The translations under genes and the position numbers were made by a program. Under the pieces are notes generated by a model. It saw nothing but the letters and a program-made list of their open reading frames with translations, did not search any database and was not told the origin of the DNA. From Benincasa hispida (taxonomy: Eukaryota; Streptophyta; Magnoliopsida; Cucurbitales; Cucurbitaceae): 64,000 nt of DNA. The stretch is taken from the NCBI RefSeq assembly GCF_009727055.1, contig NC_052353.1, positions 45,870,935 through 45,934,934 on the forward strand. The letters run 5' to 3'. How positions within the stretch are numbered: the first letter of the stretch is position 1; every line of letters begins with the position of its first letter. Below are positions 4,179-64,000 of the stretch, in pieces.

Positions 4179-5226
4179 TGTTGGGGTTGATGCCCTAAAT
4201 CTTGTAGGGTTCTATAGTTTGTAAATGTTTTGAACAAACTATTTTTTATTTAATAAAATATATGATATTTTATTCCATAAATGTTGCATTAACCACAAGC
4301 TCATAAACTAACATCCAATGTTATCTTGTAGCTTAAACATATATGTAGAGACACACGTGTGGATCATGTTTAAGTGATAACATAAGTGATAACATCCAAA
4401 GTTGGGTACCTTATCCTGGTAACACTACGAGTATGGCCTGCTTTATACGTGTTGTATGTAAACCCCGAACTCTAGGTTCCTAGATAAGCAAGTTTAGCCA
4501 AAGGAATGTTATAATATATATATATTTTTTTCTTTTCTTATTTTTTTTATTAAAGTAATTCCTGGTTATTCATAGGAATTATGATGGAAGGGAAGGAAAA
4601 ACTAAGTGGGGGTAAAGTGGCGGTTAATCCTTGAACTTGGGAGGCGGTGGGAAGTGTTTTGGAAGAAGAACTTCAAAAGCTTGGTTTCGGCAGCAGACAT
4701 GAAGATTTTAGTGAATTCAGTGCCATTTGAAAACTGAGAGAATCTAGGTTGTGAAATTGTCTTGCCGGAGGAAGATTTCAGGAGGAGAAGAACAAGGAGT
4801 GAAGAAAATAAAGAGAAGGCAAAACCTCATATTTAAGCAGGGCTGAGGTGAAGATTGAAAGTTCCAAGCCAAACTATAAGGAATTCTGGGTTGAAATTTT
4901 AAGGTAAGGAAGTTAACTCAATTCTAAATAAGTTGTAGAAGGAAGTTTCTTGAAAAGAGCTCTAGATTATGAGTTATGAAATTTTGAATTTATAACAGGG
5001 AATTGGTACATAAGCAGATAGCTGCTTGTGATGAACAAGCAAGCAGTTCATCGTAGAGAATTATAGCGAGATTTGGGCATGAGTATCTCGCTTATAAAGA
5101 AAATCTCGCTGATTTTGTGAGGAGGATCTCGCTCTAGGGGGAAATCTCACTAAGAATTTGGCTGAGTATCGCTGGTAAGGTGAGTATCGCTAAGATGAAA
5201 ATTTGACAAGAAAAGCTTGATCTCGC

Positions 5227-5370
5227 TCTAGAGGATCTCGCTGGTATCGCTCTAGAGGATCTCGCTGGTATCGCTCTAGAGGATCTCGCTGGTATCGCTC
5301 TAGAGGATCTCGCTGGAATCGCTCTAGAGGATCTCGCTAGCATCGCTCTAGAGGATCTCGCTGACCTCGC
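5227..5370. repeat. 24-bp minisatellite, six units
   Basis: Six head-to-tail 24-bp units, each starting TCTAGAGGATCTCGCTGG, run without gaps. Later units vary at the last six or so positions. The TCTAGA word recurs every 24 bp. Less regular GATCTCGCT words extend the array on both sides (about 5040-5400). Because 24 is a multiple of three, the array gives a spurious open frame with an 8-residue repeat on the minus strand. Confidence 0.95.
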
Positions 5371-5863
5371 TCAGGGGGATCTCACTAGTAAAGAATGTCT
5401 GTGTTGATGGAAGTTCCTTTAATAAATGAATTATTTGAGGTATTTTACTAGGAATTCTAAGTAGTTTAATCAGAAATTATATCTTTTCAGGTCAAGAAGA
5501 ACTAGGGGAAGCGTATAAACCATTAAGAGCCTGACGAACAGTGAGTGACTAAGTAAACTTAAGGTTTCCAATACTCATGCATATATGATCAAGTAAAGCA
5601 CAGTGACATTAATGATGAAATTATACTTCCTCAAGCAACAAATGGTTGGAGAATAACTTAATGCATGTTTCCTGGCTTGTATGTGTGTAACACAGGCCAA
5701 GGTATGTCGTGTAACCATTATAAAAGCTATGTTTCTGGTTTTGATATATGCTTCCTAAAGGAAGGCTATGGGAAAATGAGTTCTTGTGTAAATGAGTGCC
5801 AATGGAACAGTTCTTGTGTAAATACTAGGCAATGGAACTTAATTTGATGTTACAAAATACACA

Positions 5864-8456: not shown

Positions 8457-10576
8457 TTGGGGTTTGTGCCCTAAAGTCTCGTGTCCTATAGCTTGTAAAC
8501 AACTTTGTACGAACACTTGTGATGTATGATACAAATGATATTTATTTCACTACTTGACTTTGCACATTTAGATGTTTTTTATTTTACCACAAACCAATAA
8601 ACTTAATATCCCTGGTTTTCTTTATGTAACTTAAGCATGTATGTAGTGACATATAAGTGGATCATGTCTTAAGTGACAACAAAAATAGTCTGTAGTATAT
8701 GGATATAGGAGGGAAACCATATCCTGGTAACACTATAGACGCGGCCCACTTTGTGGAATTGTTATAAATGTTGTGACTTGTCACAGATGGTCTAATCTTG
8801 ATTATTTGTGTAGTGGACATACGAGTGGGGGTGTTCTATACAAAGAGTTTGTATAAGACTTGACCTTGAAGTGTTAATGTCTTGTCATATAACTCCATTC
8901 ATGACTGAGACTTCACTTCACTAAGATGACCATAGGTAACATGACCTTAATCCTGAGTGAGTTGGGAACTCCTGCCATTGAGGGCGGTCCTTTGATTTGC
9001 ATGGGTGCGAGTGGCCAGAATGCCAACTCAAACCTAACATTTTTGGGATTCTTCTCATTTGGGAGGTGGGAACTCAGCTTCACAAGATGGAGTTCACTCT
9101 TTCCCCAAAATAGGGGTAAGTAGATAGATTGCTCTCTTAAAGGTTGATCTCGGGACTTGAACGATGTGGCGCCATGCACCTTCTCATGGCCCGAGAGGTG
9201 TTCACACATAGTAGGACTATGTTGTATTGTTCATTAGAGGGATCAGTAGTACTTAAGAAGGAAGATGTAATTACAGGGGCAAAACGGTAAATTGGCCTAC
9301 TGTAATTACGAACATCTTTGAGGGATCATCGTACTGATGATTGGTTATATCCAATGGACATAGAAATATATCTATGGAAAGAAGAGTTCAACTTTCAGTC
9401 TTTAATGGAATGCCTGGCAGTTAACGGATGGTGGATATCGTGACTAAAGAGTTTAGTTAGCTATTCACATACCGTTGGAGCTTCGAGCCATAGGTCCATA
9501 AGGCCTCCTTGGTAGCTTGGATACAAGTTGAGAATCAGTTTTTAGGCAGTTTGAAATGTTCAAATTGACAAGAGGGAGTTCGATTATATATGATATAATT
9601 GAACGAGTTAATTAAATATGATATAAATAACTTTATGTATGAGATACATTAATTTGGAGGAAATTGAATATAAATATAATTTATATCTAGTAGAAGAAAA
9701 TATTATAATTAATATATGATATTAATTTATATGTTATCAAAATGATAAGATCACATTCATTGAACAGTTATAAAGGAAATGGGACGGCGTCTCTTCTATT
9801 CAAAATAACGGATGAGTGCATTATATATAGCTGACGATGTGTTGAAAACAAAGGCGCGGACATTGTGAAAAAGATAATGTCATCGTTTAGAAAATCAATG
9901 CCCATATGATAGTGACTGCATGATCGCTTACATATACGATATTGCTAAGCGATCGCTTACCGATTACACCGTTGTGTGCTATTATCTAAACAATCGTTTA
10001 CCTTTTTCCTAAGTGAATGTTTAGCTCCCAGTATTTACTAAACCATCGTATAGACAATCACTTAGTTTTTCCTATGCGATCGTTTGGACGATCGCTCACC
10101 CTTTTCCTTCATGATCGTTTATACGATTGCTTACCTTTTCCTGCACGATCATTTAGACGATCTCTTACTTTTTCCTACATGATCGTATACTTCACCTAAA
10201 CGATCAAGCATCTTGTCTATGTGATAGATGACCTCATCTCCCACTTTCTTGATCGTTGTGTACAGTCTCTCTTCCTTCTTGCCTCTACCAAATCCGAACA
10301 AAGCTCACACTTTGGATTCTCACTCCAAAAATATTGAGGGCTCTGAGTGATGTTGTCTTCTCCATTTCCTTCTGCTCTGGTGGTGATTGTTCAAGGTAAA
10401 CAGTTGGGTTTTAGGCTCGCTGTGAAGGAGAACTCCTCATCTGGTATGATCTCTTGATCTCTTTAGTATTATGAATGCATATTAGTATGTTTTGAATATA
10501 TATGCGGTAATTTTGTCACAATTAATTGGAAAGATCCGCTTCCGCTCGTAGGTACTCTTGAATAAGAGTTCCTTCA
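8457..10576 (+). mobile_element. Solo LTR-A nested in an inverted LTR-A, TSD aaggg
   Basis: The LTR runs from TTGGGGTTTGTGCC (the first two bases TG are lost) to AGAGTTCCTTCA. The flanking 5-mer AAGGG is present on both sides (8452-8456 and 10577-10581). Removing the insert restores the normal LTR text ACAAGGGGACCTTATGGACC of the minus-strand copy, which confirms the boundaries. The CGATCG array is at about 9890-10210. Confidence 0.9.
9890..10210 (+). repeat. CGATCG array inside LTR-A
   Basis: About a dozen degenerate units contain CGATCG or one-base variants such as TGATCG and CGATTG, with a TTTA tail. They lie 370-690 bp before the LTR end. Many variants are explained by CpG loss. Confidence 0.8.
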
Positions 10577-13982: not shown

Positions 13983-15365
13983 TGAAGGAACTCTTAAACA
14001 AGAGTATCCATGAGTGGAAGCGGATCTTTCCGATTTCATTGTGACAAAATTACCACACATACATTCTATCATACAAATATGCATTGTATGACTAATTACT
14101 GGCATGCTTTAACAAATAAAATACAAAAGGTCAAGAGACTTACCAGTTGAAGACTTTCTTCAATCGAACTCGGTCTAGCGGAAGCGAACTACTCACGCTT
14201 CTTATCGTCAAGAAAGTAGTCGCCTAACAACACCACAGTCGTATACATGATTAACAGTGCACGAAAAAATAGCAACCAGGGACGACACCACCACTCAAAG
14301 CCCTCAGTATTCTCGGAGTGAGAATCCAAAGGGTGGACTTTGATGGAATTGGTAGAGGAGAGGAGGAAAAGCAATCGTGTAGAACGAACAAGCAAGTGGG
14401 AGAAAGGGATGACTATTGTATAGTTGGGTGCTTGTCGTTTAGGTCAGGGTACACGATTATCTCGTAAACACTAAGAGATCGCCTATCAAAAGGTAAGCGA
14501 TCGTTTAGTTCTGCTCGGCATGCTAAACGATCATGTAGTAAACGTAAGCGATCATTTAGAAATCGTGGGCGATCGTTTAGTGCGCATGTGTGCGATCGTT
14601 TAAGAAGATGGGCACTATCGCATAGACTCTCAACGCTAAGTGATCGTTTACTTTCACACTGTGAGCGAATTTTCGGATATCTCTTGTCACTATTGCAAAA
14701 TTAAAAAAAAAAATCATTTTATTCTTCAGTTACAAGAAATGAATTCGAACTTCCCACTTTCGCACGAATCCGGAGAAATACTCGGCCAATTATCTCATAA
14801 CTGCCAAATTAAATAATGAATATAATCATATTATATTCTTAACCTATAGTTTAATATCATATATCAACTATAGTGTTTTCTTCTTTACTTGATATAAATC
14901 ATATTTATATCCAATTTCCTCCAAAATAATGTATCTCATACATTTAGTCAATTATATCATAACCAACCGTTCAATTACTGGTTGAACTCCCTCTTATCAA
15001 TTTGAACATTTCAAACTGACCCAAAGATTGATTTTCAACTTTATCCAAACTACCAAGGGGACCTTATGGACCTATGGCTCGAAGCTGCAACGGTACGTGA
15101 ATAGTTGACTAAACTCTTTAGCCACGAGATCCACCATCCGTTAACTGCATTCCACTAAAGACCGGCAGCTGAACTCTTCTTACCACATATATATTTCTGT
15201 GTCCATTGGATATAACAAATCATGAATACGATGACCCTTCATAGATGCTCGTAAGTACAACTGGGCCAATTTACTTTTTTGCCCGTGTAGTTACATCTCA
15301 CTCCTTAAGTATCACTGATTCCTTTAATGAACAATACAACATAATTCAACAATGTGTGAACACCT
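13983..15365 (-). mobile_element. Truncated minus-strand LTR-A inserted in integrase sequence
   Basis: It starts TGAAGGAACTCTTAAAC exactly where the minus-strand integrase frame breaks. It includes the CGATCG array (about 14440-14650) and the standard LTR-A interior, then ends about 15365 in the middle of the LTR without reaching the CAACA terminus. The right end is a rearranged junction rather than a normal LTR boundary. Confidence 0.75.
14440..14650 (-). repeat. CGATCG array inside LTR-A
   Basis: This is the same array as at 9890-10210, inverted: units GCGATCGTTTAG spaced about 20 bp, with one-base variants. Confidence 0.8.
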
Positions 15366-30564: not shown

Positions 30565-32740
30565 ACTTTTTTTTTAATTAATATCCATTTTACCCTCACA
30601 TCCACACCTAGTAAGAATGTGCCTTGCACTCACACTTCATGGCAAAATCCTAATCATATAATGAGATATCTTTCATCCTTTAATTTTACGTTCATTTTTA
30701 ACCTAAATTTTTTGAAATTTTAGATATTTTCATATTGCAATCTTTGGAGAAAAAACTACCTCCTTATAAAAAATCATTCACGAATCAAATCATTTTCAAC
30801 AAAATATACATTCGTGCAAATCTATAAAGGGGGCTATATCTCTTCCAATAATCAAGGTAATCACCAATTTTTGCACTTGTTTGCTTTTAGGAATTTTGAT
30901 ATATTTGGTGCAATACCACATATGTTCATGATGGTTGCTTTCAAATTTGCTCTATTTGTGCCTCTATGGTAAGGAGACTTCAATTATGGATGTATCCAAA
31001 ATATAGATGTTGAGATTGAGATTGTTTATTATTTTTTTCTCCCTTTTGCTACTTTGATCGGTAAAGAGGTGAGGATTGAGAGATTGGAGGAACCCATGGC
31101 GGGAAGATATGATAATGCAATGCACATTGGAAAGGTAGAATATTAAGAACCTTTCATACAATTTCTCTATATTTGCTGTAAATTCTCTCTTCCCTGTTTC
31201 TTACTTTTTGGCAACATGAAAATATATATTTTTTTAATATAATGATATGGACAAGATGATTAAGGAAAAATTGACATATAGTGGGAGAAGTTAGAAAATA
31301 TTTAAGGAGAGATTATTAATATTAATTTAATCTTATTTCTTTGTTTTTCAAAATCTCATTCAATAATCTAAATTTTCTCTTACTTGTTACTAAAAGAATA
31401 AATTTATGACTTTAACTAATACAATATATGTTACTGAACTCTTTTTCCATTTTCTTTAATTAATAAAATAAAATAAGTTTATGATTATTCTCTAATATAA
31501 GGTAGATTTTCTTCTATTTTAATTATACATTTTTAACCATTTTGTGGATTAGAGATTAGAAGATAAAAATAGTTTTTATAAATATAAATAAATAAATAAT
31601 CGACAAATTTGTTCCTTTAAACAAGAATGTTCATTTAAAAAATTATGTAAAAAGTTGCCTTCTTTGGCTTTCCCCTCTTAAAGTGAAAAACATAAAAGAA
31701 TTATCTTATTAAATAATAATTAAGATATGTTATCATGTCACTTTTATATTAATTTTATTTCAAAAATTTTATTAGCATCATATTTTAATTTTATATATTT
31801 TATTTTTTATAGTTCTAAATTTTATACCAATTATTTAAATTTTAAATTCAATTATAAGTATTTTCAAAAAAAAATATTTTCCTTTAAAAATCGTGTCATA
31901 AATTTTAACTATATTAAAAATGTCTCATACCCATTGTAAAATAACTTGAAACAAAAAGATATATATCTTTTAACACTATTTTAAAATTAATTCATGTCAT
32001 GTTAAATATTTAACAATTAAAGTTGAGTCAAAATTTTATGTTAAATAATAATTAAATCGCAATTTAAAATTTAATATATAAATTTATGTCAAAAAAAAAA
32101 ATAATTCGCGTGTATCACATGGTCTCCCAACCAGTTTTGTTACTAAAAGGTCGTTTTCAAAAGATATTTTTATTTATAAAATTTGACTGGAAAATTATAT
32201 ATTTTTTAAAAAGAGTAAAAATTATTGCAAGCAATCATAAATTTCAAAGGTAGAAAACTAAGAATTTATCAAACATAGTCTAATTTATTGATGAATTTTT
32301 ACTTTAAAGTTTTAATTTAATCAAAATAAAACCCTATATTTACCCATGCATTGTACGTTTCACCCGATGTTGAACTTTGTATAAATTCACAAATTAATTT
32401 ACACTTTCTTAATATGTTGTTGACATTCCAAAACCGTAGGGGTAACGTAAAAATTGATATTTTTCTCAAATTTATTTAGAAAGAAATTGGTTTGTCTCCC
32501 GATCCGATTATTTGAAACGGCGCGGAAGATAAAGACAAATAATCGTCGACAAAAAAGTGTACCGGAAGAAGCTGTACAGTCCCCCCCGCCACCTACACCT
32601 GTCGGTTACCTCCTCCTTGTAAGGCCCCAATCACCATCATCATTCCCTCCCCTCTGTTTCCTTTTGTCTTCTTCTTCCTCACCATTACCCAAAAAACCAT
32701 TACGCCATTCTGTTAAATTTGCAGACTGCATCTCAATTCT

Positions 32741-32751
32741 CTATATATATA
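32741..32751 (+). promoter_or_regulatory. TATA box of the bHLH gene
   Basis: CTATATATATA lies about 60-70 bp before the ATG at 32810, so transcription would start near 32775 and give a 5' leader of about 35 nt. The upstream 32580-32700 segment is rich in C and CT runs, a pyrimidine patch common in plant core promoters. Confidence 0.65.
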
Positions 32752-32809
32752 CACACATTACACACAACACAATCCCTTGTTCTCTTCTTCTCTCGTTTCA
32801 CCTTTGGTT

Positions 32810-33775
32810 ATGGAGAGCTCTGCCGGCGACGATGCTTCCTCCACTGTTTGGGATGATACTTGCTTCAACGCCATGTTTTCCGGCGTCAGTCTCCAGTCAT
32901 TTCTCGCCGGTGGTAGTCAGAGTCACACATTTTTGCCGTCTCTGTTCGGAGGAGGATACACTGCCGATGCTCTTGCTTTCCCTGACGGTACTACGTCGTT
33001 CTATCCTCAACCGAGCTCTAACTTCGTTGCTGAATGTACCGCTTCTTCCGATGGCTATTTCCTCAAGTTGCCTAAATCCGAGCCGATGAATGTGTATGGA
33101 AACACAGAGACTGAAGAAACTGCGTTCGGTCTTCATGATTCGATGTCGTTTCCTCACTTGCCGGATCTCCGTTCGTTGGAGCAATGTTCGTCGTCGTTTA
33201 ACAAGCGTGCTCGAGTCGATTATTCTATGTTGAATCCGTCGCAGATGGTGGAGCCGATGGTGCGAGGGTGTGAGGGTTTCCAGAAATTTTTTATGCCGTA
33301 TCAGTACAAACCTTCGTCGGATTTAATAACAACTTCTGCTACTGTGTCTCCCACTGTTCAAATCCCTCGCAGCGCATTGGCTCGACAGCGTCGTCAGAAA
33401 TTGAGCGACAAGACGCGTTGCTTGCAGAAACTACTTCCGTGGGACAAAAAGATGGATATCGCTACAATGCTTGAAGAAGCGTGCAAATACGTCAAGTTCC
33501 TTCAAGCGCAACTCGTCGCACTTCAATCCATGCCCTGTGAATCGGCCATTTCTACTTATTCGAGTAATCATTACATTACCGGTGTGTTTGGTGGATTGGA
33601 GAGGCTGAATCGAAACCAACTGTTGCAAGTTTTGGTTAACTCGCCGGTGGCTCAGACAATGCTTTGTTCGCAGAGTTGTTGCGTTTTCTCGGCGGAGCAG
33701 TTGGGGCTTATCCAGAAGATAGCAGAGAAAAGAGTTCTACTGCAGCAAATGTCGACATTCCGTCCCAAACCCTAG
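32810..33775 (+). CDS. bHLH117-like transcription factor
   Basis: A single-exon frame of 321 codons. The ATG at 32810 is the first in-frame ATG after the TATA box; the frame extends 11 codons upstream without an ATG. The helix-loop-helix lies at residues 188-235: basic part R192-R203 (RQRRQKLSDKTR), helix 1 to L209, loop PWDKKM (210-215), helix 2 216-235 ending KFLQAQL. The basic part lacks the His and Glu that contact the E-box in classical bHLH proteins (QRRQKLSDK in place of HxxxERxRR), so binding to CANNTG is doubtful. The N-terminal half is low in structure and Ser-rich; the C-terminal third (about 250-321) is conserved-looking with an NRNQLLQVLVNSPVAQTMLCS segment. The family is nuclear and acts as dimers. 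Assignment to the Arabidopsis bHLH117 group is from memory of the LSDKTRCLQKL..WDKKMD..TMLEEA pattern. Codon use and GC are well above the surrounding DNA. It is convergent with the GeBP-like gene 1.48 kb away. Confidence 0.88.
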   Translation: MESSAGDDASSTVWDDTCFNAMFSGVSLQSFLAGGSQSHTFLPSLFGGGYTADALAFPDGTTSFYPQPSSNFVAECTASSDGYFLKLPKSEPMNVYGNTETEETAFGLHDSMSFPHLPDLRSLEQCSSSFNKRARVDYSMLNPSQMVEPMVRGCEGFQKFFMPYQYKPSSDLITTSATVSPTVQIPRSALARQRRQKLSDKTRCLQKLLPWDKKMDIATMLEEACKYVKFLQAQLVALQSMPCESAISTYSSNHYITGVFGGLERLNRNQLLQVLVNSPVAQTMLCSQSCCVFSAEQLGLIQKIAEKRVLLQQMSTFRPKP

Positions 33776-35255: not shown

Positions 35256-36461
35256 TTAGGTAGCTTTCTTTGCCTTCCCCATTGAATCCAATATTAGTTT
35301 ACATTGTTCCCTAACTAAATCAATCTTCTTCACATACAATTCCAGTTCACTTTCTCCCAACTTCCTCCATTTATCATCCAATTCCTTTGCTTTTTCACTC
35401 CCAATTGATGGCATTCTTTCTCTAACAAGACGCATTAACCCTTCTGAACAGAACTTATCATTCTCCACCATGAAAGAAGCTTTCAGCCATGGATATTCAG
35501 ATAGAAACTCCTCTGGCAAAATCTTACTCTCAACATTATTATTGTTTACAATCTCTTTCTTCCCTGCTTCCACATCCACTCTCGGCGAGCTTATAGACAC
35601 TGAATTGCTAGCTTTCACACTCTGCTTCCTTGGCTTCTTCTTTGCTTCATTGCCCCAAATTTTCTTCGCAAGTACAAAGGATTTGTGCTCATGTTGTTTC
35701 AAAAATACAGGGTCATCCCCATTCCTACCTTTCTCCAAGTTGGTCTTATACTTCTGTTTCAGCCTTCTCACTTTATCAATCAATTGATTCTTTGACACAT
35801 CAACACTTAGATTTTCCTTTATGAAATCAAGAAATAGGCTCATATCAGTATAAGGGTCGGACCCCTTTGCTAATCGAAAATCAATCATGCCCTGTAATAT
35901 GGAAATCTCATCATCTACACTCCAAAGCCTGTTCATGCCAGAGCCAGAGACCTTTTTCCCTTCTTCAATATCTTCGCCATTCATTAGTCTCTTGATCTTC
36001 TTCTTATTCGACTCATTCCCTTGAAAGTAATTTTCAATCGGACGCTTTGAACCTGAACTAACAGGCTTCACAGTGGCACAATCTATGCTCGATTTGTGAG
36101 AACCCTTCTTAGGTTTAGAAGATTCACAAGCCAATTTTCGAAGAATCGGTTTGATAGTGAAAGCAGAAGCACTTGGGGATGATTGGGTTTTTTCAGAATC
36201 GGAATCCGAGACAAACCCAGAATTCTTTTCAAGAGAATTTTCACATTTGGAGATAATAGGAGAACGGATTTCTTGTTCATGCTCTCGTTCTTCGTGTTCT
36301 TCTTCTTCATCTTCTTGGGCGTGTTCTTCGTTTTCATCCTCAGAGTTTTGCATTAGATTATCGATTTCTGGATCTTCATGAGTCTCGTAATCGGATTCTT
36401 CTTCAGCATCTGAAAAGGCATGAGCGGACGGTAGATCATCGACGAGCCGCTTCGGTGCCAT
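35256..36461 (-). CDS. GeBP / Storekeeper-like DNA-binding protein
   Basis: A single-exon frame of 401 codons, ATG at 36461, TAA at 35258-35256. The N-terminus is very acidic (E/D-rich at residues about 20-64), followed by a Ser/Lys-rich linker with likely nuclear localisation signals (KRPIENYF region and NKKKIKR at 152-158). The GeBP-type DNA-binding domain (DUF573) is at about 177-270: NRLWSVDDEISILQGMIDF, then SLFLDFIKENL, KNQLIDKVRRLKQKYKTN and HKSFVLAKKIWG. The C-terminal part (about 315-395) is helical, with a leucine-spaced LDDKWRKLGESELELYVKKI stretch fitting the dimerising region of the family. Known biology: GeBP and Storekeeper-like proteins are plant nuclear DNA-binding proteins linked to trichome gene and cytokinin/sugar responses. 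The exact orthologue cannot be assigned from sequence alone. Length, domain order and lack of introns agree with the family. Antisense open frames over it are shadows. Confidence 0.93.
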   Translation of the reverse strand: MAPKRLVDDLPSAHAFSDAEEESDYETHEDPEIDNLMQNSEDENEEHAQEDEEEEHEEREHEQEIRSPIISKCENSLEKNSGFVSDSDSEKTQSSPSASAFTIKPILRKLACESSKPKKGSHKSSIDCATVKPVSSGSKRPIENYFQGNESNKKKIKRLMNGEDIEEGKKVSGSGMNRLWSVDDEISILQGMIDFRLAKGSDPYTDMSLFLDFIKENLSVDVSKNQLIDKVRRLKQKYKTNLEKGRNGDDPVFLKQHEHKSFVLAKKIWGNEAKKKPRKQSVKASNSVSISSPRVDVEAGKKEIVNNNNVESKILPEEFLSEYPWLKASFMVENDKFCSEGLMRLVRERMPSIGSEKAKELDDKWRKLGESELELYVKKIDLVREQCKLILDSMGKAKKAT

Positions 36462-36528
36462 GGGAATCGAATGGAAGAAAAAGAAAAGTTAGGTTTTGGT
36501 TTTTGGGAAGAGCCAGCCAGAGAAATTT

Positions 36529-40990: not shown

Positions 40991-42850
40991 TGCTAGGTTT
41001 TATGTCCTAAAACTCGCAGTTTGTAAAATGATAAACATTTTCTATAATCAATAAACTTATTATTGATTTTATAAATTGTATGAAAGTCTAAATCCAATAA
41101 ACTAAGACTCATGACTATTACATGAGTACTTGAACTTTATGTGAAGACATAAGAGTGGATCAAATTCAAGTAAATAGTTAAAATGATCTATAGTACATGA
41201 ATAAGTTTGGGTACCTTATTCTGGTAACACTATTGGATGCGGCCTACTCTGTAGTTGTTACAAAGAGTTGTAAAGTGCTACATACGATGTGATCCTAATT
41301 CGTACATGTTATGGCATGAGGAGTGGGGGCATCCTGTGCAATGAGTTTGCATAAGATCGGACCAAGAAATAAGTCACTCTTACTTTATAACGTTGTTTAC
41401 TGTATAAGACTGACTATTTCATCTAGATGACCTAGATAACTCGATCTTAATCCTGAGCTAACTATGAACTCATGTTTATTCGGGATTATCCTTAGATTTG
41501 CATAGGTGAGGGTTAGCTCAACAACGTCAGCTCAATAAACCTCTCATTTCAGGGGTAAGACCTAATAGATAGCTGGGGACATATGATGCAAGACGGAGTT
41601 CACACCTACCTGATTTAAGGATAGGAGAAAGGTTTTTCTCTCAAGTACTGAATTCAGGTCTTGAACAAGGGGCCCACCCTCTCACTAGGCTGAGAGAGTT
41701 TGGTTTAGTAATTGGATCACAAATCAGTTGTTCATTAGATGATTAGTGGGAACTTGAGGAACAAGACGTAATCTCAGGGGTAAAACAGATATTTGACCCA
41801 GCTGTTATTACAAACAACCTGTGAAGGGTCGACTTGCTGATTATGGTTAAATCATATGGATATAATATATCTACAGTGAGGGGAGTGCAACTATGGGCTT
41901 TAGTGGAGTGACCCATTAGTTAACGAATGGGGGTTAATTTGGTCTAATGAGTTTAGCCAATTAATCTCGGATCGTTGGAGCCCATGATCTGTAGGTCCGC
42001 AAGGTCCCCCTACTAGCTCGTAATTGGACTAGCTCTAGAATAGCGTGATAAGTTAATTTGAAACGTTCAAATTAGAATTAAGGGAATTAGTAATTATATG
42101 AGATATAATTATGTGTTTAATTTGAGAATTAAACGGAATAGGAGAATTTATATTTAAATATGATTTAAATATATAAAGATGGATGTGTGTAAAAATTAAT
42201 TTAATATTTGATATTAAATTAATTGAGTTTTATTTAAAAATTAATTTTATAAAATTAAATTTTTTAGTTTAAAAATCAAAATGGATTTTAAAAAATCAAG
42301 TTTTGATTTTGAGATAAAGTTGGAAAATTGGAAAAAAATAATATATAAATGGAAAAACAAGTTTTTCCATTATCCATCTTCTTCATGCTCACACATTTTC
42401 CATTTCCTCTTCTTCATTAACTTCAAGCATGAGCTACAACTCATGCAGCTCTCTTCCTTGCATGATGATCTACAATATATTGAAGACATTGGAGTGAATT
42501 TGAGGCATGCAGTCAAGAGAGAGTTTTAGAGAAAATTCGTGCTAAAGAATGTGTTCTTCAACAAGATTGTTGCTGTGAGCAATTCTCCATAATCCCTTGA
42601 TTCAAGCTTCTTTTGAGTCCCACAACTCAATCTAGAGCACCAAGAGAATAGTGGGGAATATCTTGAGGTGGTCTGCAACAAGATTCAAAGAAGATTGCAA
42701 CAGGAGAACGAGCTTTGAAGAAGTTCTACAAAAGTATGTCATGAAACTCACTTGTTTCTGCAAACGCATGCTTTATATTTTGTCAAAATTAATGAATTAG
42801 AGTACTTAAATGATCCTTGTTGCTTCCGTTGTTGCTGATACATTCCTACA
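40991..42850 (+). repeat. 5' LTR of the inner copia element (LTR-B)
   Basis: A 1860-bp LTR starts TGCTAGGTTTTATGTCC (a mutated TGTTGGG terminus) and ends ATACATTCCTACA. It pairs with the 3' LTR at 51326-53205; the two are highly similar by eye with scattered substitutions. The open frames within (for example 42281-42529) are not genes. Confidence 0.92.
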
Positions 42851-42851
42851 A

Positions 42852-42864
42852 TTGGTATCAGAGC
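42852..42864 (+). promoter_or_regulatory. Primer-binding site of the inner copia element
   Basis: TTGGTATCAGAGC directly follows the LTR after one base. It is the standard plant copia primer site, complementary to the 3' end of initiator tRNA-Met. Confidence 0.92.
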
Positions 42865-43185
42865 ATTATATAAGCATTCAATTTGGTTTCATTTTTGTGT
42901 GGTGGGTGTTTTGTATGAGTTATATGAAACTGATGCACTGATATGGTTTTCTGAGATTTTACATTTTAATTCTCTTTAGTTTATCACTTAAATTTGTAAT
43001 TGGCTCTTGTTTGATGAGATTTTATGTGTTAGCAAGAGTCTGTAATTTATTTGGAGTCATTAGAGTTGAAATTAAGATGTAATTGAAGAAACAAGTGAAG
43101 AAAGTCGAGCTGCTATTCCAGTTTTTTAGCTTCTGCTCAAAATCGTTGTTAAGGTTCAGTTGCTAAGTGATCGTCGAGTTCCAGG

Positions 43186-43830
43186 CATTACGTGATGTAA
43201 AGAAAAACTAGACGATCTTATAGCAATGAGTGTTGGTCGTTGTGATGATGGACACTAAGTAATTGTGTACCTACAGGAGCTAGACGATGCGTTGATATGC
43301 TATGCAATAACACTACGCGATCGTTTAGTTTTTCTTGTGTGGGATCTAAACAATGCATTGGAGGTGCTATACGATGGCACTACACGATCGTGTAGCTGCG
43401 GTGCACACTAAGCGATGTGATGAAGTGCTATGCGATAGTGCTAAGTGATCATTTAGCTGCGACACTAAGCGATGCGTTCAAGTTCTATGCGATGGAACTA
43501 AAAGATCGTGTAGCTACGACGCTGAACGATGCGATGATGTTCTATGTGATAGGGCTAAGTGATCGTTTAGCTACAGCGGACACTAAACGATGACATGAAG
43601 TGCTAGGTCATGGTGTTAAGCGATCGTTTAGTTCTACCTGAGAGCTAAACGATTGCTCTATACGATAGACAGATGACACTAAGCAATCGTGTACCTCTGA
43701 CCAATGCAAGGCGATGGTGTTAGACCTGTCTCTTATACACATCTAGATGTGTATAAGAGACAGCTTCTCAACACTAGGCGATAGTGTTAGACGATTGTCT
43801 TCAGCGCTACACGATCGACCTTAGCAAAAC
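43186..43830 (+). repeat. CGATCG array in the copia leader
   Basis: Roughly twenty degenerate units of 25-40 bp alternate words such as ACACTAAGCGATG and GATCGTGTAGCTACG, with CGATCG or one-base variants. It lies in the internal leader, not in the LTR, unlike the LTR-A arrays. It is interrupted by the adapter sequence at 43726. Confidence 0.75.
43726..43763. other. Nextera/Tn5 mosaic-end junction: library adapter artefact
   Basis: CTGTCTCTTATACACATCT (43726-43744) is followed at once by its exact complement AGATGTGTATAAGAGACAG (43745-43763). Each half is the 19-bp Tn5 mosaic end used in Nextera libraries, and this head-to-head pair is the junction adapter left by circularised mate-pair libraries. 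It has no counterpart in the related leaders. The sequences on the two sides may therefore not be adjacent in the real genome. Confidence 0.97.
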
Positions 43831-43952
43831 TTTGAGATTGGATCGAGAGCAGCCGGTTTGATTAGTTTTCTCGAGGTCCAATCCGGTTCAGCAAAAATGG
43901 TTTTTGGCTGGTCCGATTCAGAATTTGTTGGTCCGGTTCAGACTCACCCAGT

Positions 43953-46093
43953 TGAAGGAAATCGGAAATGAGATTTCCATGAACATCGGAAGAAACATAA
44001 TTCCAAATCACAATCATGAATGAACAATGCATTTACAATCGACTTCAAACAAGCGGTTATACAATTCTTACAGAAATTACAGCATGAAAAAACTCAAATG
44101 AACAGAGAGCAAACTCTACACACATTTGAAGAAGCGTCTCCATGCTCTGTTGCGCATGACCGCTCGAACAACAGCAACCTTGAATGCTCGATCTACACGA
44201 TCGCAACACCGCACGAACACTTTGCATTCGTCTTCAACGATCGCCTTGGTCACGAACTCCTCAGCAACACGAATGGCCTCCACAGCACCACGAATGGCCT
44301 CTAGAAAACCTTGACGGTGTCGAGTTGAGTCTGACACCACCAACAAGGCTACCTTGGTATTCTCGGTGTGAGAATCCAGAAGGTGGGCTCTGTTCGAACT
44401 TGGAATGAGGCAGACAAAGGAGAAAACACCGATCGTGTACACGACTGGGTAAGTGGGAGATGGCGGAGACCTATCGTATAGGTCGATGCCCAATCGTTTA
44501 GATAAAGCTAAGCGATCGTCTAGCAAAAGCTATGTGATCGTTTAGCTCGGTTTGTCGCCTACAGACTCTACACAATCGTTTACTTAGGGCAAGCGATCGT
44601 CTAGCAAAACTATGCGATCGTTTAGTAAATACTGCACGATCATTTAGCTCGCCACTGTACGATCGTTTAGCTCGCTCAGCCGTCGTTTAGTAAATCCATA
44701 TTTACTTGACGACTACCATGAGATTCTTTTGCACGAGAGAGAAAACTCAAAAAACTTTTTCATTCGTTTTGTAAATCCTTCTTTTCAAAATAGGAAAACC
44801 ACTTTCCTTTTAAACTCACGGTTACCATGAATTCAATAACCATCCACTCACTTGGTTATTAAAGAAAAATAATTAATATTATTATAAATATAAATGATAA
44901 CTAAATTATCATACTATATTTATAACCTATAGTTTTAATATTTCATCTCATGAAACATATAAACCATAGTTCTTTTTCTATTCCATGGTACTTAATGTAA
45001 ATCTCATTTACATCAATCCTCCACTAGATGTATCTCATACATCATACTGATTATATCATATATAATTGAATTACCTCTTGTCAATTTGAACATTTCAAAT
45101 CAACACCAAGAACTGATCCTCAACTGAACCTATTGAGCTACCAAGGGGACCTTATGAACCTGTAGCTCGAAGCTCCAACGGTACGTGAATAACTGACTAA
45201 ACTTTTAGTCACGGGATCCACCATCCGTTAACTATCAGGCACTTCACTAAAGATCGACAGTTGAACTCTCCTTACCACAGATATATTATGTGTCCATCTT
45301 AACCAATCAGCAGTGCGACAACCCTTCACAGATCACTCGTAAGTATAGTTGGGCCAATAACTGTTATGCCCCTATAGCTACATCTGTCTCCTTAAGTACC
45401 ACTGATCCCTCTAATGAACATAAATCATAGTCCTACTATGACTGAGTCTTCTCTTCCAAAGAGAAGTTGTGGCCACTATGTTCAAGTCCCGAAATCAGCC
45501 CTTAAGGGAGCAATCTCTCTATTTATCCCTGCTTCAAGAAAGAAGTGAATTCCATCTTGTGGATTGAGTTCCCAGCTCCCAGATCAAACAAGTCCCTAAA
45601 AAGGTAGGCATGTTGAGTTGGCAATTTGGCCACTCTCACCCATACTAATCAAAGGTCTGCCCTCAAAGGTAGGGGTTCCCAAAACACTCAAGATTGAGGT
45701 CGTGTCACCTATGGTCGTTTAGGTGAGATATAAGTCTCTAGTACCAACGGCGTTATATACAGAGTCTAGTCATCTCGTGGTCCAGATCTTATACAAACTC
45801 TTTGTATAGGACAACCTCGTTCGCACGTCTCTACATGAATGGTCAGGATCTACCATCTGTAGTAGTTTACAACACTTATAAACCTTTACAAAGCGGGTCG
45901 TATCCGTAGTGTCACAAGGATCAGGTATCCCACCTTAATCCTTATACAATATACCTATTTAGGTTATCATTTAAGGCATGATCCACTTGTATATCACATA
46001 TACATGCTTAAGTTCATATAAGATAACCAATGAGCTTTGTTTATTGGATATGAGTAAATGCTAGAATTAAAAAATGTGTATCTTTACAAAACA
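43953..46093 (-). mobile_element. Solo LTR nested in the inner copia leader, TSD ccagt
   Basis: Read on the plus strand it starts TGAAGGAAATCGGAAATG and ends TCTTTACAAAACA. The 5-mer CCAGT flanks it exactly (43948-43952 and 46094-46098). It is an LTR-A-type copy in inverse orientation with its CGATCG array at about 44440-44700. The part equivalent to the last 50 bp or so before the terminus is shortened. Overlapping open frames at 44020-44526 on both strands come from this LTR and are not genes. Confidence 0.92.
44440..44700 (-). repeat. CGATCG array inside the solo LTR
   Basis: Units GCGATCGTTTAG/GCGATCGTCTAG with a spacing of about 20 bp; around ten copies. Confidence 0.8.
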
Positions 46094-46959
46094 CCAGTCC
46101 GGTTAAAGATGCTTGGGTTCGGTTTGGAGCGGTTTGAGTGGTTCAAAGACGGTTTTGATGTTGTTTGTAATAGTTAGGCTTCTATTTGCATTTTTATGTC
46201 AAAACTAAAATCATATTAGTCTATGTTTAATTATTTATGCATTTGATGTATGTTATAATTAAATAAATCTTGTATGTGTATATAATATGCCATTTAGATT
46301 TAAAATCCCACCATAGGAAGCATGTTACATGCATTGAAAGTATGTTATAATCTGTTATAATATATAGTATGCATGTTAGGGTTTCTAGTATTTAATGTAA
46401 GTGTTATATTAAATATTGAATGCCTTTATGTATGTTATGGATGTTTAGTATGTCTAAAGTTTTATAAGTTGTTATAAAATTGGGTTAAACATTTAAAATC
46501 CATAAACAATAGTTGCATGTTTACATAGGTTAACCACCTATTTTAATAGTTAAAAACTTGTAAAACCTGAGTTACAAACTCAATCGGTATATAATCCTGT
46601 CTAAGGCTGGGGGTATTTAAGTTGATGGTTTATGGAACATCTCCTACCTGGGGATTATGGCCGAATTATTGAGCGTTGGTGATGGTTTTATGAGCATACG
46701 TGAGCGATGTGAGGTAATAAAATAGTTTATCACCTAGACATCGTAGGTTAAAATCCAATTATAAGTGTTACTTGGATAAACCACATAGACTTAGGGTTGT
46801 TTTATTAGCCGAAAAGAACCTAAGTATAAATCTACCCAATAGAACACTTCAGTGGCAGCTTAATAACTTCTATATGATAGAGTTATTAGAAAACTTTAGT
46901 GGTAGATTAATAACATATACAATACATTATTTTTAGCTCTCACGTCCCTAAGAGTTCAC

Positions 46960-47382
46960 AATCCAGATTTAGGCGGTACTTCATGTCACCCTAGGAGTGA
47001 CCTCCATACGGAAAGTATTTTTTCGCTTCAATCTAGATTTTGGTGAATAAGAGAAAGTTGTTCAAACATAAATCAATTATTCGATATATAGATTTCAACT
47101 GCCACGTCTCCACATAGTTTACACCATGAGATTCATATGACGCTTCGTGTCACCCTGGGAGTGACCTCCATACGGAAAGTGTTTTGTATGAGTCAATAAC
47201 AAAGTAAACAGAGAAAGTAGTTCATAGTAAGTGGGTGAAGGATATGTGTCAATATATCATGCGGTCTCCTCCATTAGTTTGAACCGTGAGATTCCTACGT
47301 TGTGCCTGCTGGTTTGCTTTAGGCAGCCTTTGCTAGTCGTTTAACCGCGGCGATCCCCACGCAGGGTTATAAAGTAGGATTC
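46960..47382 (+). other. Stem-loop domains of the copia leader (inner element)
   Basis: Three domains in series are predicted. Domain 1 is closed by an imperfect stem around 46962/47043 and has inner hairpin GTCAC 46985-46989 / GTGAC 46997-47001. Domain 2 is closed by 47130-47137/47187-47194, with inner hairpin 47149-47153/47161-47165. Domain 3 is closed by TCCTAC near 47293 and GTAGGA near 47374. The order and spacing match the leader at 21139-21549. Confidence 0.6.
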
Positions 47383-47796
47383 GGAACAACCCAGGCTTCA
47401 GTAAAATGAATAGGGTCTTATAGTTCCATTTTGGATATTGTCTTCTATTTCAGAGGCATATTCATACCGTTCTATAAGATCTGAAAATGGTGAATCACAC
47501 TTACAAGAATTACTAAATGTTAGTAAAGATCTTAACCGAAAACGATAACTAAACGACTATAGGAATAAGAGTTATTCCGGAGACAATAGGAATAAGAGTT
47601 ATTCCAGAGATAGTTTTTGGTCAAAATTGGTTGCTTTAGTGAAGGAGTATCTGACTGCCCCTCGATAGCACATATTCTGACTCACTAAAGTATCGTTGCA
47701 AATAAATAATGGATACGGGTACATTATTACTTTTTGCTAAAATTGGATTTTGGATTTAGTTACAATTTTCTAATTAGAATTTGTTTGAATTTTATC

Positions 47797-50700
47797 AACA
47801 TGTCGAATTCTTCTAGAATACTCACTTCCGAATTAAATAACAATAAAATCAAATCAACAAACAAATTAGTAGCGGTTGATTACAGCAAAAGAGTTTTAAT
47901 AGAGGATTGTCCTTTATCTCTCAACTCATCTGAAATTTTGAATTATGTTTCGAACAACAAGTTAAATATAATTTACTTGTTATCGAAGCATGTTTAGTGG
48001 AAAACGATAAAATCTGGATAATTGATTCAGGTGTCGCTAATCATGTTCATACTATCTCACAGGAAACAAGTTCCTGGAGACAATTGACAGAAGGTGACAC
48101 AATCTTTAAGGTAAGGACCGGGGAGATTGTTTCAGTTAAAGCAATGGGAGATATGAAGTTATTTATAGGAGATACGTACATTGATTTGAAAAATGTATAT
48201 TATATTCCTTCTATGAAAAGGAATCTAATATTCATCTCTTGTTTGCTAGAACATAATTATAAAGTTTATTTCGAAAATGATGAAGTGTTTATCAATATAG
48301 AAAGTAAAGAGATTTGCTTTGCGAAATTAGAAAATAATTTGTATATGTTAAAACCAATTGAGATCAAAGCCGTTTTGAACATAGAGATGTTTAAAACTGT
48401 TGGGATTCATAAGAAAAGGAAGATTTCTCCAAATGCCTATCTTTGGCACTTGAGACTAGGTCACATAAATCTCAATAGGATTGAGAGATTGGTTAAGAAT
48501 GGTCATCTAAATAAGTTGGAAGACAGTTCATTACCACCATGTGAGTCGAGGGTAAAGTGACAAAAAGTTCTTTTTCTGGAAAAGGTCTTAGAGCCAAAGA
48601 ACCCCTAGAGTTGATTCACTCAAACCTTTCTGGGCCTCTAAATGTTAGAGCGAGATGAGGGTATGAATATTTCTTCAGTTTTATAGATGATTATTCGAGG
48701 TGTGGGCATGTTTACCTAATGCACCAAAAGTCTGAATCTTTTGAAAAGTTCAAAAAGTATAAGGCTGAGGTTGAAAACCAATTAGGTAAAAAGATTAAAA
48801 CACTTCGATCGGATCGAGGTGGTGAGTATATGGACATGAAATTCTAGAACATGGAATTCAGTCTCAACTCACAGCCCCTGACACACCTCAGCAAAACGGT
48901 GTGATAGAAAGGAGAAACAGAACCTTGTTGGACATGGTTCGTTCCATGATGAGTTACGCTCAGTTACCCAATTCTTTTTGGGGACACGCACTTGGAACTG
49001 CAGTGTATATTTTGAACATTGTTCCCTCAAAAAGTGTTTCTGAAATGCCTTATGAGCTCTAGAGAGGACGTAAAGGAAATTTACGTCACTTCTCAGGATT
49101 TGGAGTTGTCTAACACATGCGTTAGTGCAAAATCCTAAAAAACTGGAACACCGTTCAAAAGTATGCCTATTTGTAAGCTACACAAAAGAAACAAAAGGTG
49201 GTTTCTTTTATGATCCTCAAGAAGACAAAGTATTTGTACCGATAAATGCAACCTTCCTAGATGAAGACCATGTGAAGAATTATCAAACTCGTAGTAAGCT
49301 AGTAATAGATGAAATATCCAGAGAAACGACAAATGTATCAACAAGAGTTCTTGATAGAGCAGGTCCTTTGACAAGAGTAGATGATAGAACAGGTCCATCA
49401 ACAAGAGTTGTTGATGAAACTGGGACTTCACATCCTTCTTAAGAGTTGAGAATGCCTCGTTGTAGTGGGAGGGTNCAAGAGTTGTTGATGAAACTGGGAC
49501 TTCACATCCTTCTTAAGAGTTGAGAATGCCTCGTTGTAGTGGGAGGGTTGTGCAACAGCCTAACCGGTACATGGACTTGACTGAAACTCAAGTCATCATA
49601 TCAGATGATGGTTTAGAGGATTCATTATCTTTTAACCAAGCAATGAATGATGTAGATAAAGACCAATGGATTAAAGCCATGGATCTTGAAATGGAATTTA
49701 TGTATTTCAATTCTGTCTGGGATCTTGTAGATCAACCTGAAGGGGTAAAACCCATTGATTGCAAATAAATCTATAAGAGAAAACGAGACTAAGTTGGTAA
49801 GGTACAGACCTACAAAGCTAGACTTGTGGCAAAAGGATTTACCTAAAGAGAGGGGGTAGATTATGAAGAAACCTTATCTCCAGTTGCCATGATAAAGTCA
49901 ATTAGAATACTTTTGTCCATAGCCACATTTTATGATTATGAAATATGGCAAATAGATGTAAGACAAATTTTCTGAATGGCTATCTTGAAGAGAGTATCTA
50001 TATGTCTCAACCAGAAGGGTTTATACAACAAGATCAAGAGCAAAAAGTTTGCAAACTTAATCGATCCATTTATAGATTGAAACAAGCTTCTAGATCCTGG
50101 AATATGAGATTTGACACTACGATCAAATCTTATGGCTTTGAACAAAATGTTGACGAACCCTGTGTATACAAGAAAATCGTTAACAAAACTATCGCTTTTC
50201 TAGTGTTGTATGTTGATGATATTCTACTCATTGGGAATGGGGTAGAATATCTAGCTGACATTAAGAGATGGCTGGCTTCAAAATTCCAAATGAAAGATTT
50301 GGGAGAAACACAGTATGTTCTTGGGATCCAAATAGTTCGGAATCGTAAGAACAAAACATTAGCATTATCTCAAGCATCTTATATAGACGAGATGTTGTCT
50401 AGGTATAAAATGCAAAATTCCAAGAAAGGATTTTTACCTTTCAGACATGGAATTCACCTGTTTAAGGAATAAAGTCTTAAGACATCTTAAGAGGTTGAGG
50501 AGATGAATCGAATTCCATATGCATCAACAGTAGAGAGTTTAATGTATGCGATGTTGTGTACTCGTCCTGATATATGCTATGTCGTAGGAATAGTCAACAG
50601 ATTTCAGTCCAATCCTGAATATGATCATTGGACTGTTGTTAAGAACTTTCTTAAGTATCTTCGGAAAACGAGAGATTATATGCTTGTGTATGGTGCTAAG

Positions 50701-51325: not shown

Positions 51326-53205
51326 TGTTGGGTTTATATCCTAAAACTCGCAGTTTGTAAAATGATAAACATTTTCTATAATCAATAAACTTATTATTGA
51401 TTTTATAAATTGTATGAAAGTCTAAATCTAATAAACTAAGACCCATGACTATTATATGAGTACTTGAACTTTATGTGGAGACATAAGAGTGGATTAGATT
51501 CGAGTAAATAGTCAAAATGATCTATAGTACATGAATAAGGTTGGGTACCTTATTCTGGTGACACATTGGATGCGGCTTACTCTGTAGTTATTACAAAGAG
51601 TTGTAAAGTGCTACATACGATGTGATCCTAATTCGTACATGTTATGACATGAGGAGTGGGGGCGTCCTATGCAATGAGTTTGCATAAGATTAGACCAAGA
51701 AATATGTCACTCTTACTTTATAACGCTGTTTACTGTATAAGACTGACTATTTCATCTAGATGACCTAGGTAACTCGATCTTAATCTTGAGCTAACTATGA
51801 ACTCCTGTTTATGTGGGATTATCCTTAGATTTGCATAGGTGAGGGTTGGCTCAATAGCGCAGGCTCAATAAGCCTCCCATTTCAGGGGTAAGACCTAATA
51901 GATAGCTGGGGACATAGGGTGCAAGACGAAGTTCGTGCCTACCCGATTTAGGGATAGGAGAAAAGTTGTTCTCTCAAGTACTGAATCCAGGTCTTGAAAA
52001 GGGGCCCCACCCTCTCACTGGGCTGAGAGAGTTTGGTTTAGTGATTCGATCACAAACCAGTTGTTCGTAGAGGGTCAGTGGGAACTTGAGGAATAAGACA
52101 TAATCTCGGAGGTAAAACAAATATTTGACCCAACCATTATTACGAACAACCTGTGAAGGGTTGAGTTGTTGATTATGGTTAAATCATGTGGACATAATAT
52201 ATCTACATTGAGGGGAGTGCAACTATGGGCTTTAGTGGAGTGACCCATTAGTTAACGAATGGGGGTTAATTTGGTCTAATGAGTTTAGCCAATTAATCTC
52301 GGATCGTTGGAACCCATGATCTGTAGGTCCGCGAGGTCCCCTTACTAGCTCGTAATTGGACTAGCTCTAGAATAGCATGATAAGNTAGCTCTAGAATAGC
52401 ATGATAAGTTAATTTGAAACGTTCAAATTAGAATTAAGGGAATTAGTAATTATATGAGATATAATTACGTGTTTAATTTGAGAATTAAAGGGAATAAGAG
52501 AATTTATATTTAAATATGATTTAAATATATAAAGATGGATGTGTGTAAAAATTAATTGAATATTTGATATTAAATTAATTAAGTTTTATTTAAACATTAA
52601 TTTTATAAAATTAAAATTTTCAGTTTTAAAATCAAAATGGATTTTAAAAAATCAAGTTTTGATTTTGAGATAAAATTGAAAAATTTAAAAAATATATATA
52701 CAAATGGAAAAACAAGTTTTTCCATTATTCATCTTCTTCATGCTCACACATTTTCCATTTCCTCTTCTTCGTTAACTCCAAGCATGAGCTACAACTCATG
52801 CAGCTCTCTTCCTTGCATGATGATCTGCAATATATTGAAGAGATTGGAGTGAGTTTGAGGCATGCAATCAAGAGAGAATTTTAGAGAAAATTCGTGCTGA
52901 AGAATGTGTTCTTCAACAAGATTGCTGTTGTGAGCAATTCTCCACAATCCCTTGATTCAAGCTTCTTTTGAGTCCCACAACTCAATCTAGAGTACCAAGA
53001 GAATAGTGGAGAAAATCTTGAGGTGGTCTGCAACAAGATTCGGAGAAGATTGCAGTTGGAGAACGAGCTTTGAAGAAGTTTTACAAAGGTATATCATGAA
53101 ACTCACTTGTTTTTGCAAAAGCATGCTTTATATTTTGCCAAAATTAATGAATTAGAGTGCTTAAATGATTCTTGTTGCTTCCGCTGTTGTAGATACATTC
53201 CTACA
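51326..53205 (+). repeat. 3' LTR of the inner copia element (LTR-B)
   Basis: An LTR of about 1.88 kb starts TGTTGGGTTTATATCC and ends ATACATTCCTACA, pairing with 40991-42850. It contains an assembly gap with a 23-bp duplicated flank (52362-52408), which accounts for most of the length difference between the two LTRs. Confidence 0.93.
52362..52408. other. Assembly gap: N with 23-bp duplicated flanks
   Basis: The N at 52385 lies between two identical copies of a 23-bp sequence (52362-52384 and 52386-52408) that occurs once in the partner 5' LTR (near 42033). Confidence 0.95.
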
Positions 53206-60892: not shown

Positions 60893-62537
60893 TGAAGGAA
60901 CTTTTATACAAAGAGTACCTCTGAGCGGAAGCGAGATTGTTCCAAAAACATTATGGTAGAATTAACGCATTTACAATCACACAGAATAAAGAATTAACGC
61001 ATTTATAATCACACAGAATAAATATGCAATATTCAATAAATTACTGACATGCTCTAAAAATAAATAACAAGAGTACAAGAAACATACCAGTTGAAGAACC
61101 CTTCTTCGTCTTAGAACTCGTTCTCTTCAAGGACTGCTCCTCTCGCTCTCACTGAGAATGTCCACTCCAGTCGTTCACCAAATCACGATCGTCTACCCAC
61201 GAACAGCCTCCACACGAACACAACAACAGGGAGGACACCACCACTTAGAACCCTCGATATTCTCGATGTGAGAATCCAAGAGGTGTAGGCTCTGTTGGAT
61301 TTGGCAGAGGGAAAGAGGAGGAGAAAATCGTATACCACGACCAAACAAGTGGGAAAAGGCTGATGTTTATTGTATACACGATGCTTGATCGTTTAGGAAG
61401 CAGTACACGATCGTTTAGTAAATAGCCGCGATCGTATAGACGATCATTTATAAACGCTCGGGCGCACGATCGTTTAGGAAAAAGCTAGATGATCGTTTAG
61501 CAAATCCTATGCGATCGTTTAGTAAGTTGCGCGCTTGTATACAATCGTGTAGAAACATTGAGCTATCGTGTAGGCTCTCAGTTCGCTATGCGATAGGCTG
61601 TATACACCACAACGTGAGCGAATGACCGACCTTTTGCAAAATGAAAACGATTTTCATTTTATTCTTCAGTTACAAAAACTGAATGAAATCTCCCACTATC
61701 ACACGGTTACGGAGAAAATGCCGGCACAATTATCCTATAATTGTCAAATTAAAAATAATAAATATAATCATATTATATTCATTAACCTATGGTTTAATAT
61801 CACATCATATGAACTACATTAACCATAGTCCTTCTCTCCTCCACTAGATATAAATCATATTTATATCATTTTCCTCCAAATAATATATCTCATACATAAT
61901 GTCAATCATATCATATATAATTAACCAGTTCAATCATATCATATATAATCGAACCCCCTCTTGTCAATTTGAACACTTCAAACTGACCTAAAACCTGATT
62001 CTCAACTTGAATCTATTGAGCTACCAAGGGGACCTTATGAACCTATGGCTCGAAGCTTCAACGGTACGTGAATAGCTGACTAAACTCTTTAGCCACGAGA
62101 TCCACCATCCGTTAACTGTCAGGCATTCCACTAAAGATAGACAGCTGCACTCTTCTCATCACAAATATATTTATGTGATCATTGGATATAACCAATCAAC
62201 AGTACATAACCCTTCACAGATGCTCGTAAGTATAGCTGGGCCAATTTACCATTTTGTCCCTGTAGTTACATCTAATTACTTAAGTACCACTGATCCCTCT
62301 AATGAACAATACAACATAGTCATACTATGTGTGGTACCTCTCGGGCCATGAGAAGAAGTGTGGCACTACATCGTTTAAGCCCCAGGATCAACCCTTAAGG
62401 GAGAAATCTATCTATTTACCTCTGCTTCAGGGAAGGAGTGAATTCCATCTTGTGTAGATGAGTTCCTAACTCCCAAATCAAACGAATCCCCAAAGTGGTA
62501 GGTTTGAGTCGGCCATCTAGCCACTCGCACCCATGTA
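60893..62537 (-). repeat. 5' LTR (LTR-A) of a minus-strand element, truncated
   Basis: On the plus strand it starts TGAAGGAACTTTTATAC directly after the primer-site complement. It carries a CGATCG array at about 61380-61560, and follows the LTR-A text until about 62537, where it breaks off inside the CCACTCGCACCCAT region. The LTR terminus is missing. Confidence 0.82.
61380..61560 (-). repeat. CGATCG array inside LTR-A
   Basis: About nine units with GATCGTTTAG, spaced 15-25 bp; CGATCG is intact in several. Confidence 0.8.
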
Positions 62538-63372: not shown

Positions 63373-63546
63373 TAATTTAAAGAAAGTTTTAAATAGAGGC
63401 AATGAAACCCGAAAACATTCATCAATTCCATCCACACAAGCATTTAACAATTAAACACAAATGCAGAAAATCCATCAAGACTGTAAAAGAAGTTCAAAAC
63501 AGAATTGAAATTTGGAATATCAGAACAACCTAGCTCTGATACCAAT
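63373..63546 (-). mobile_element. Minus-strand copia leader fragment and primer-site complement
   Basis: A short stretch ends GCTCTGATACCAAT (63533-63546), the complement of an intact copia primer-binding site, directly before a minus-strand LTR. Similar text precedes the LTR at 60893. Confidence 0.65.
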
Positions 63547-64000
63547 TGAAGGAAATCGGACATGAGGATTTCCATGAGCAGTGGAAGGATCTTTCCAAAT
63601 TTCAATCGTATATGAACATTACAATTACAATCACAAACGAAAACATACGGTTATGCATAAAATAGAAATTACAGCATGCTTCTCTAAAGATCAAGGGAAG
63701 AATCAACAAACTTTGTAGACTCATCTTCAAGTTCCTTGATCACGAACCCCGATCATAGCAACACAACAACACAAGAACGTTCGTTCAACACGACCGCTAC
63801 ACTACACGATCATAGCAAACTCGAACTAAGCGATCATCAAGGTCACGAACACCCCGAACACCGCGAACGGCCTCCACAGAACCTTGACTGTGTTGAGTTG
63901 AGTATGACACCACCAAGAAGATTACCTCGGTATTCTCGGTGTGAATATCCAAAGGGTGGGCTCTGTGTGGACTTGGTTAGAGGCAGAAAACTGGAGGAAG
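63547..64000 (-). repeat. 5' LTR of a minus-strand element, cut by window edge
   Basis: It begins TGAAGGAAATCGGACATG and follows the solo LTR at 43953 closely (CACCACCAAGAAG... and TATTCTCGGTGTGA). It continues beyond the window. Confidence 0.8.

Follow-up and report, generated by a model that had tools for sequence, protein, structure and literature searches.

Gene content and host element of the locus

The window, meaning here the whole 64,000-nucleotide stretch of DNA that was analysed (G000:C5:45870935-45934934), belongs to an assembly, G000, of 912,946,352 bp in 1,791 contigs, presumably the wax gourd (Benincasa hispida) B227 draft. A family scan covered seven of the eight stop-to-stop frames of at least 150 aa, and only those at 35256-36488 and 32717-33775 matched non-retrotransposon families: the former, on the minus strand, is a GeBP/STOREKEEPER-like gene, whose protein shares 91% identity with a protein of Citrullus colocynthis and 88% with one of Cucumis melo, and the latter, on the plus strand, is an open reading frame with a helix-loop-helix domain. 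The tRNA and Rfam scans gave no matches. A tandem array of about six copies of the 24-bp unit TCGCTCTAGAGGATCTCGCTGGTA (96% matches) occupies positions 5218-5390.

The 38-bp palindrome with which this report is concerned, an adapter on the evidence given below, sits within the leader of a Copia-type LTR retrotransposon with the following parts:

40996-42850, plus strand: 5′ LTR of the Copia-type host element, its ends taken from blastn and its sequence 92% like 51330-53205
42853-42864, plus strand: primer-binding-site-like motif TGGTATCAGAGC, by motif match
42865-43952, plus strand: leader region, broken by the adapter, with a tandem array at 43405-43631 (unit about 57 bp), by repeat and paralogue comparison
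43953-46093, minus strand: nested solo-LTR-like insertion of 2,141 bp, TG...CA, with CCAGT on each side, by paralogue comparison
46094-47500, plus strand: resumed leader, collinear with the paralogues (16 of 20 past 47.2 kb), by paralogue comparison
51330-53205, plus strand: 3′ LTR of the host Copia-type element, by blastn against the 5′ LTR

Copia pol domains were detected to the right of the adapter, at 47934-48557 and 49942-50469. Short-unit arrays around CGATCGTTTAGC were present at 43276-43653, 10034-10186, 14284-14602, 44326-44670 and 61252-61525, in the leader and LTR-like stretches of several copies. When the flanks of the adapter were compared with the tandem unit, the last 100 bp of the left flank gave a clear signal (0 of 500 shuffles as good), and the signal on the right was weak (first 60 bp, 15 of 500 shuffles as good; first 100 bp, 34 of 500). 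A likeness between 43948-44417 and 63542-63990 was considered as leader collinearity and rejected, the stretch belonging to the solo LTR nested in the host element; a minus-strand primer-site motif with adjoining LTR-like sequence lies at 63533-63544, and the collinearity argument from 63542-63990 was dropped because of this motif and the nested solo LTR.

Sequence and identity of the palindrome

43726-43763, no strand: 38-bp mate-pair junction adapter (head-to-head mosaic ends), almost certainly, on the evidence of the palindrome, its copy number and the identical string in the available part of a published protocol (PMC7357533)
43726-43744, plus strand: first mosaic end, 19/19 identity
43745-43763, minus strand: second mosaic end, 19/19 identity

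Direct computation showed that 43726-43763 is a perfect palindrome with an arm of 19 and no extension past it, and each of its halves matched the Tn5 mosaic end at 19/19 positions, as the first-pass annotation of this DNA had described. These were the only two mosaic-end matches with up to three mismatches in the 64-kb window (mean 0.01 expected by chance), in agreement with the earlier statement that no related leader in the window contains the palindrome. On direct reading, the CTG/CAG ends point outward to the genomic DNA and the AGATGT ends abut centrally with 0 bases between them, so that the 38 bp consist of a 19-bp mosaic end and its own reverse complement; this orientation is that of a mate-pair junction, which the head-to-head pair had been proposed to represent.

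The mosaic end is derived from the ends of IS50/Tn5, and the pair in the window differs from those ends in its absent transposase gene, its absent target duplication and its synthetic end sequence. The letters of the Nextera Long Mate Pair junction adapter we take to be those of the mosaic end, with no sequence difference from 43726-43763. The circularised adapter also has the same length and arrangement (19 + 19): as described in the available part of the NextClip paper, each fragment end receives a 19-bp adaptor and the two are joined on circularisation, giving a pair, 38 bases long, of a forward copy and a reverse-complement copy (PMC3928519). A 4-kb mate-pair protocol, in the part of its text available, prints a string identical to all 38 bases under the name 'biotin labeled ring adapter' (PMC7357533); there it is joined to sonicated DNA by ligase, whereas the Nextera type uses transposase. 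Attachment by transposase and attachment by ligase are indistinguishable from the assembly sequence.

According to the available part of the B227 paper (PMC6856369), ALLPATHS-LG assembled the draft from Illumina paired-end reads, mate pairs of 2 and 8 kb served for scaffolding and PBJelly for gap filling, yielding 2,197 scaffolds of which 397 were anchored to 12 linkage groups. The kit used for the wax gourd library is unnamed there, and we can only infer a Nextera-type kit for B227, since the words Nextera and adapter are absent from the main text in its available part (PMC6856369).

Copies in this and other assemblies

The exact 38-mer was found 9,991 times in G000, or about once per 91 kb, and the reversed control 0 times; such scattering of many copies through one assembly is what is expected of a mate-pair adapter. 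Searches with the 19-mer, allowing up to two mismatches, gave 11,214 forward and 11,208 reverse matches in G000, compared with 7 and 12 for the control. Elsewhere, contigs of prokaryote genomes contained the exact 38-mer in at least 120 stretches; the 80 matches listed came from 17 organisms and were clustered in a few unrelated assemblies, many to each, and this occurrence of many copies within few unrelated sequencing projects points to a laboratory reagent as the origin. Viral contigs held it in seven stretches, plasmid records in 5 of 72,556, and E. coli complete-genome records in 0 of 20,395. The plasmid records are from Klebsiella, Serratia, Cronobacter and Escherichia, with no feature under the best match of each in a gene table that is incomplete, and their copies likely represent the same artefact.

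The palindrome is thus an artefact of assembly and not biology, and we regard it as nearly certain that a mate-pair junction adapter here escaped trimming and became part of the assembled sequence. The first-pass annotation, which had named it a mate-pair adapter left in the assembly, receives very strong support here from the 9,991 exact copies, the empty reversed control and the lack of a target duplication (see below). Among the papers listed in literature searches on adapters, mate pairs and misassembly, none describes such adapters in the wax gourd genome in its title or abstract opening.

Continuity of the flanks in paralogous elements

Paralogues of the locus were sought with the left flank (43326-43725) as query; 40 of 1,880 candidates were scored, giving 39 other places in G000 at 81-87% identity, and 20 of these 39 were taken as the sample (C5:19848645 was skipped and the next place taken). 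All 20 were free of adapter and of N, and in all 20 the right flank continues the left flank in the same order and on the same strand. None of the 20 holds the 38-mer, as expected if the sequence is a mate-pair adapter absent from homologous sites. In each paralogue the right flank begins 29 bp before the end of the left flank, this overlap having been extrapolated by up to five bases where the match stopped short of the flank edge and confirmed column by column. In the window the stretch therefore occurs in two versions:

43697-43725, plus strand: 29-bp stretch, left version, single in each of the 20 paralogues
43764-43792, plus strand: 29-bp stretch, right version, 22/29 identical to the left version

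The 22/29 identity between the two versions is about that seen among paralogues (mean 0.81, 190 pairs). Further to the right, all 20 paralogues pass from about 43953 to 46094 directly or through no more than a few tens of intervening bases, so that the solo-LTR-like piece at 43953-46093 is missing at its point in every one of them and is private to the window copy among those compared. Once this nested solo LTR is allowed for, 16 of the 20 match, some with gaps, past 47.2 kb; in the remaining four (L145, L150, L152 and L155) matching ends between 46.3 and 46.7 kb.

Because the flanks are contiguous, on the same strand and collinear in the paralogues, order and orientation around the adapter are, as judged by this comparison, native. 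The suggestion made earlier, that the DNA on either side may come from sites kilobases apart, finds no support at this site, given the contiguity in 20/20 paralogues, the 29-bp overlap and the collinearity past 47.2 kb in 16/20. In its fullest form this suggestion amounts to a plain mate-pair chimera, with the flanks being the two ends of a fragment, 2-8 kb apart, and the whole locus mis-joined. A read through a junction does hold just such two fragment ends, according to the available part of the NextClip paper (PMC3928519), mate-pair libraries of 2 and 8 kb went into B227 according to that of the genome paper (PMC6856369), and the left tip exactly matches another locus (see below). Against this, the flanks meet at one point on the same strand, with the 29-bp overlap, in all 20 paralogues and run on collinearly in 16 of them, and fragment ends placed at random would seldom coincide on one 29-bp stretch of the leader. 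We consider a plain chimera improbable, and joining over a long range was rejected as the flanks are contiguous in the paralogues.

A probable foreign tip to the left of the adapter

43672-43725, plus strand: left tip, which probably stems from a read of a different copy of the element, 54/54 identical to about G000:C1:21119906-21119959 (minus strand)

The 29-bp overlap, together with the difference between its two versions, indicates that at least one tip probably comes from another copy. The last 39 bases to the left of the adapter match G000:C1:21119906-21119944 exactly, and the identity extends over 54 bp; leftward of 43672 the C1 match is interrupted by a 20-base gap and then continues at lower identity (379/494 over the full alignment, including the tip). 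The C1 copy at 21119906 is without adapter and continues with its own sequence. For comparison, the longest exact run between paralogues was 47 and the median 23 (190 pairs, about 400 bp), and once its last 60 bases are left off, the left flank has no exact run longer than 23 in common with the C1 copy. The 54-bp match is the best in the genome and was selected as such, and the left flank also shares exact runs of 47 and 40 with L136 and L138 respectively, both among the 20 paralogues, which lie elsewhere in the flank and have no adapter there. About 54 bp to the left of the adapter were probably grafted from another copy of the element, for which the evidence is good, though not final, and the join looks like a fine-scale chimera in which order and orientation remain intact.

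Sister sites and the proposed origin

The comparison was extended to 40 sister regions, a non-random set lying entirely in the first 5.9 Mb of C1, of which 38 hold the 47 full junctions; L194 and L195 had been chosen for half sites and contain no full junction. Direct repeats of at least 90% identity immediately across the adapter were found at 13 of the 47 sites, three of these in one four-adapter tandem cluster with 167-bp spacing, and may reflect an anatomy like that of the join in the window, where the overlap is only 22/29 identical. The other 34 sites had no immediate direct repeat of at least 90%. Of the 154 junctions compared from other genomes, 17 had exact repeats of at least 17 bp immediately across the adapter; some of the 154 are perhaps counted twice, as stretches of one contig can overlap.

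The cluster, L170 (G000:C1:2861251-2861789), has its four adapters at exactly 167-bp spacing, and the 129-bp stretches between them match one another end to end; this is perhaps the product of a loop made by the assembler or of repeated copying of a small circle.

We propose that, when the library was prepared, circles were formed from long fragments bearing 19-bp adapters, giving reads of the form genome-adapter-adapter-genome, and that untrimmed junction reads of this kind would then have entered contig building or gap filling. Inside the tandem array of a high-copy leader, which short reads cannot span, both sides may have been extended into the adapter, and the palindrome, being common to both, would have served as a false overlap by which the gap was closed. 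In this detail, from circularisation through untrimmed reads to joining, the scheme is the one that we favour on balance, with the false-overlap step and the program being parts that we infer. It seems somewhat probable, to a like degree, that the roughly ten thousand adapters of B227 mark false overlaps by which short tips from other repeat copies were grafted. If this is true, an adapter flags a small local error, in the form of tens of duplicated or foreign bases, beyond the 38 extra bases themselves, and our results suggest that such errors can be found for each adapter by paralogue comparison or by a search for overlap between the flanks. In a crop draft, 9,991 adapters could disrupt gene models and variant calls, as well as repeat libraries and the design of primers.

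Transposon insertion and native palindrome as alternatives

Insertion by Tn5 creates a 9-bp target duplication, and the mosaic end is a synthetic hybrid that differs from the natural outer end by 3 bases and from the inner one by 4. As the mosaic end works as a functional transposase end, the pair could in principle be a real insertion into the plant genome, namely a minimal element bounded by two mosaic ends and either derived from Tn5 or akin to IS50. The 9-bp flanks of the adapter in the window differ (GTGTTAGAC on the left and CTTCTCAAC on the right) and form no duplication, none of the 47 full adapters in the C1 sister regions has a 9-bp duplication, and among the 151 junctions of prokaryote and viral contigs that could be used, just 1 has it. 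The abutting ends at 43726-43763 leave no bases between them for cargo or a transposase, and the synthetic end sequence, like the clustering of the 38-mer in unrelated draft assemblies and its absence from the E. coli complete genomes, also argues against an insertion, the five plasmid records notwithstanding. A real Tn5 insertion was rejected on the lack of the 9-bp duplication and is in our judgement very improbable, well below the plain chimera.

In the leader of the retrotransposon the tandem array does abound, on direct reading, in short palindromes such as CGATCG. That the 38-mer is likewise a palindrome native to this array was rejected as it is missing from all 20 paralogues, and with the two 19/19 identities to a synthetic sequence and the assembly-wide copies this reading has next to no probability.

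Single-N junctions in the window

Two further positions in the host element have the look of contig joins:

49475, no strand: single N between the two copies of an exact 73-bp direct repeat, which looks like an unmerged contig overlap
52385, no strand: single N between the two copies of an exact 23-bp direct repeat, which looks like an unmerged contig overlap

A single N in the sister region L190 has no flanking direct repeat. At 49475 and 52385 the contig ends seem to overlap and to have stayed unmerged, so doubling the sequence; the N at 49475 falls between two open reading frame fragments of the coding part of the host element.
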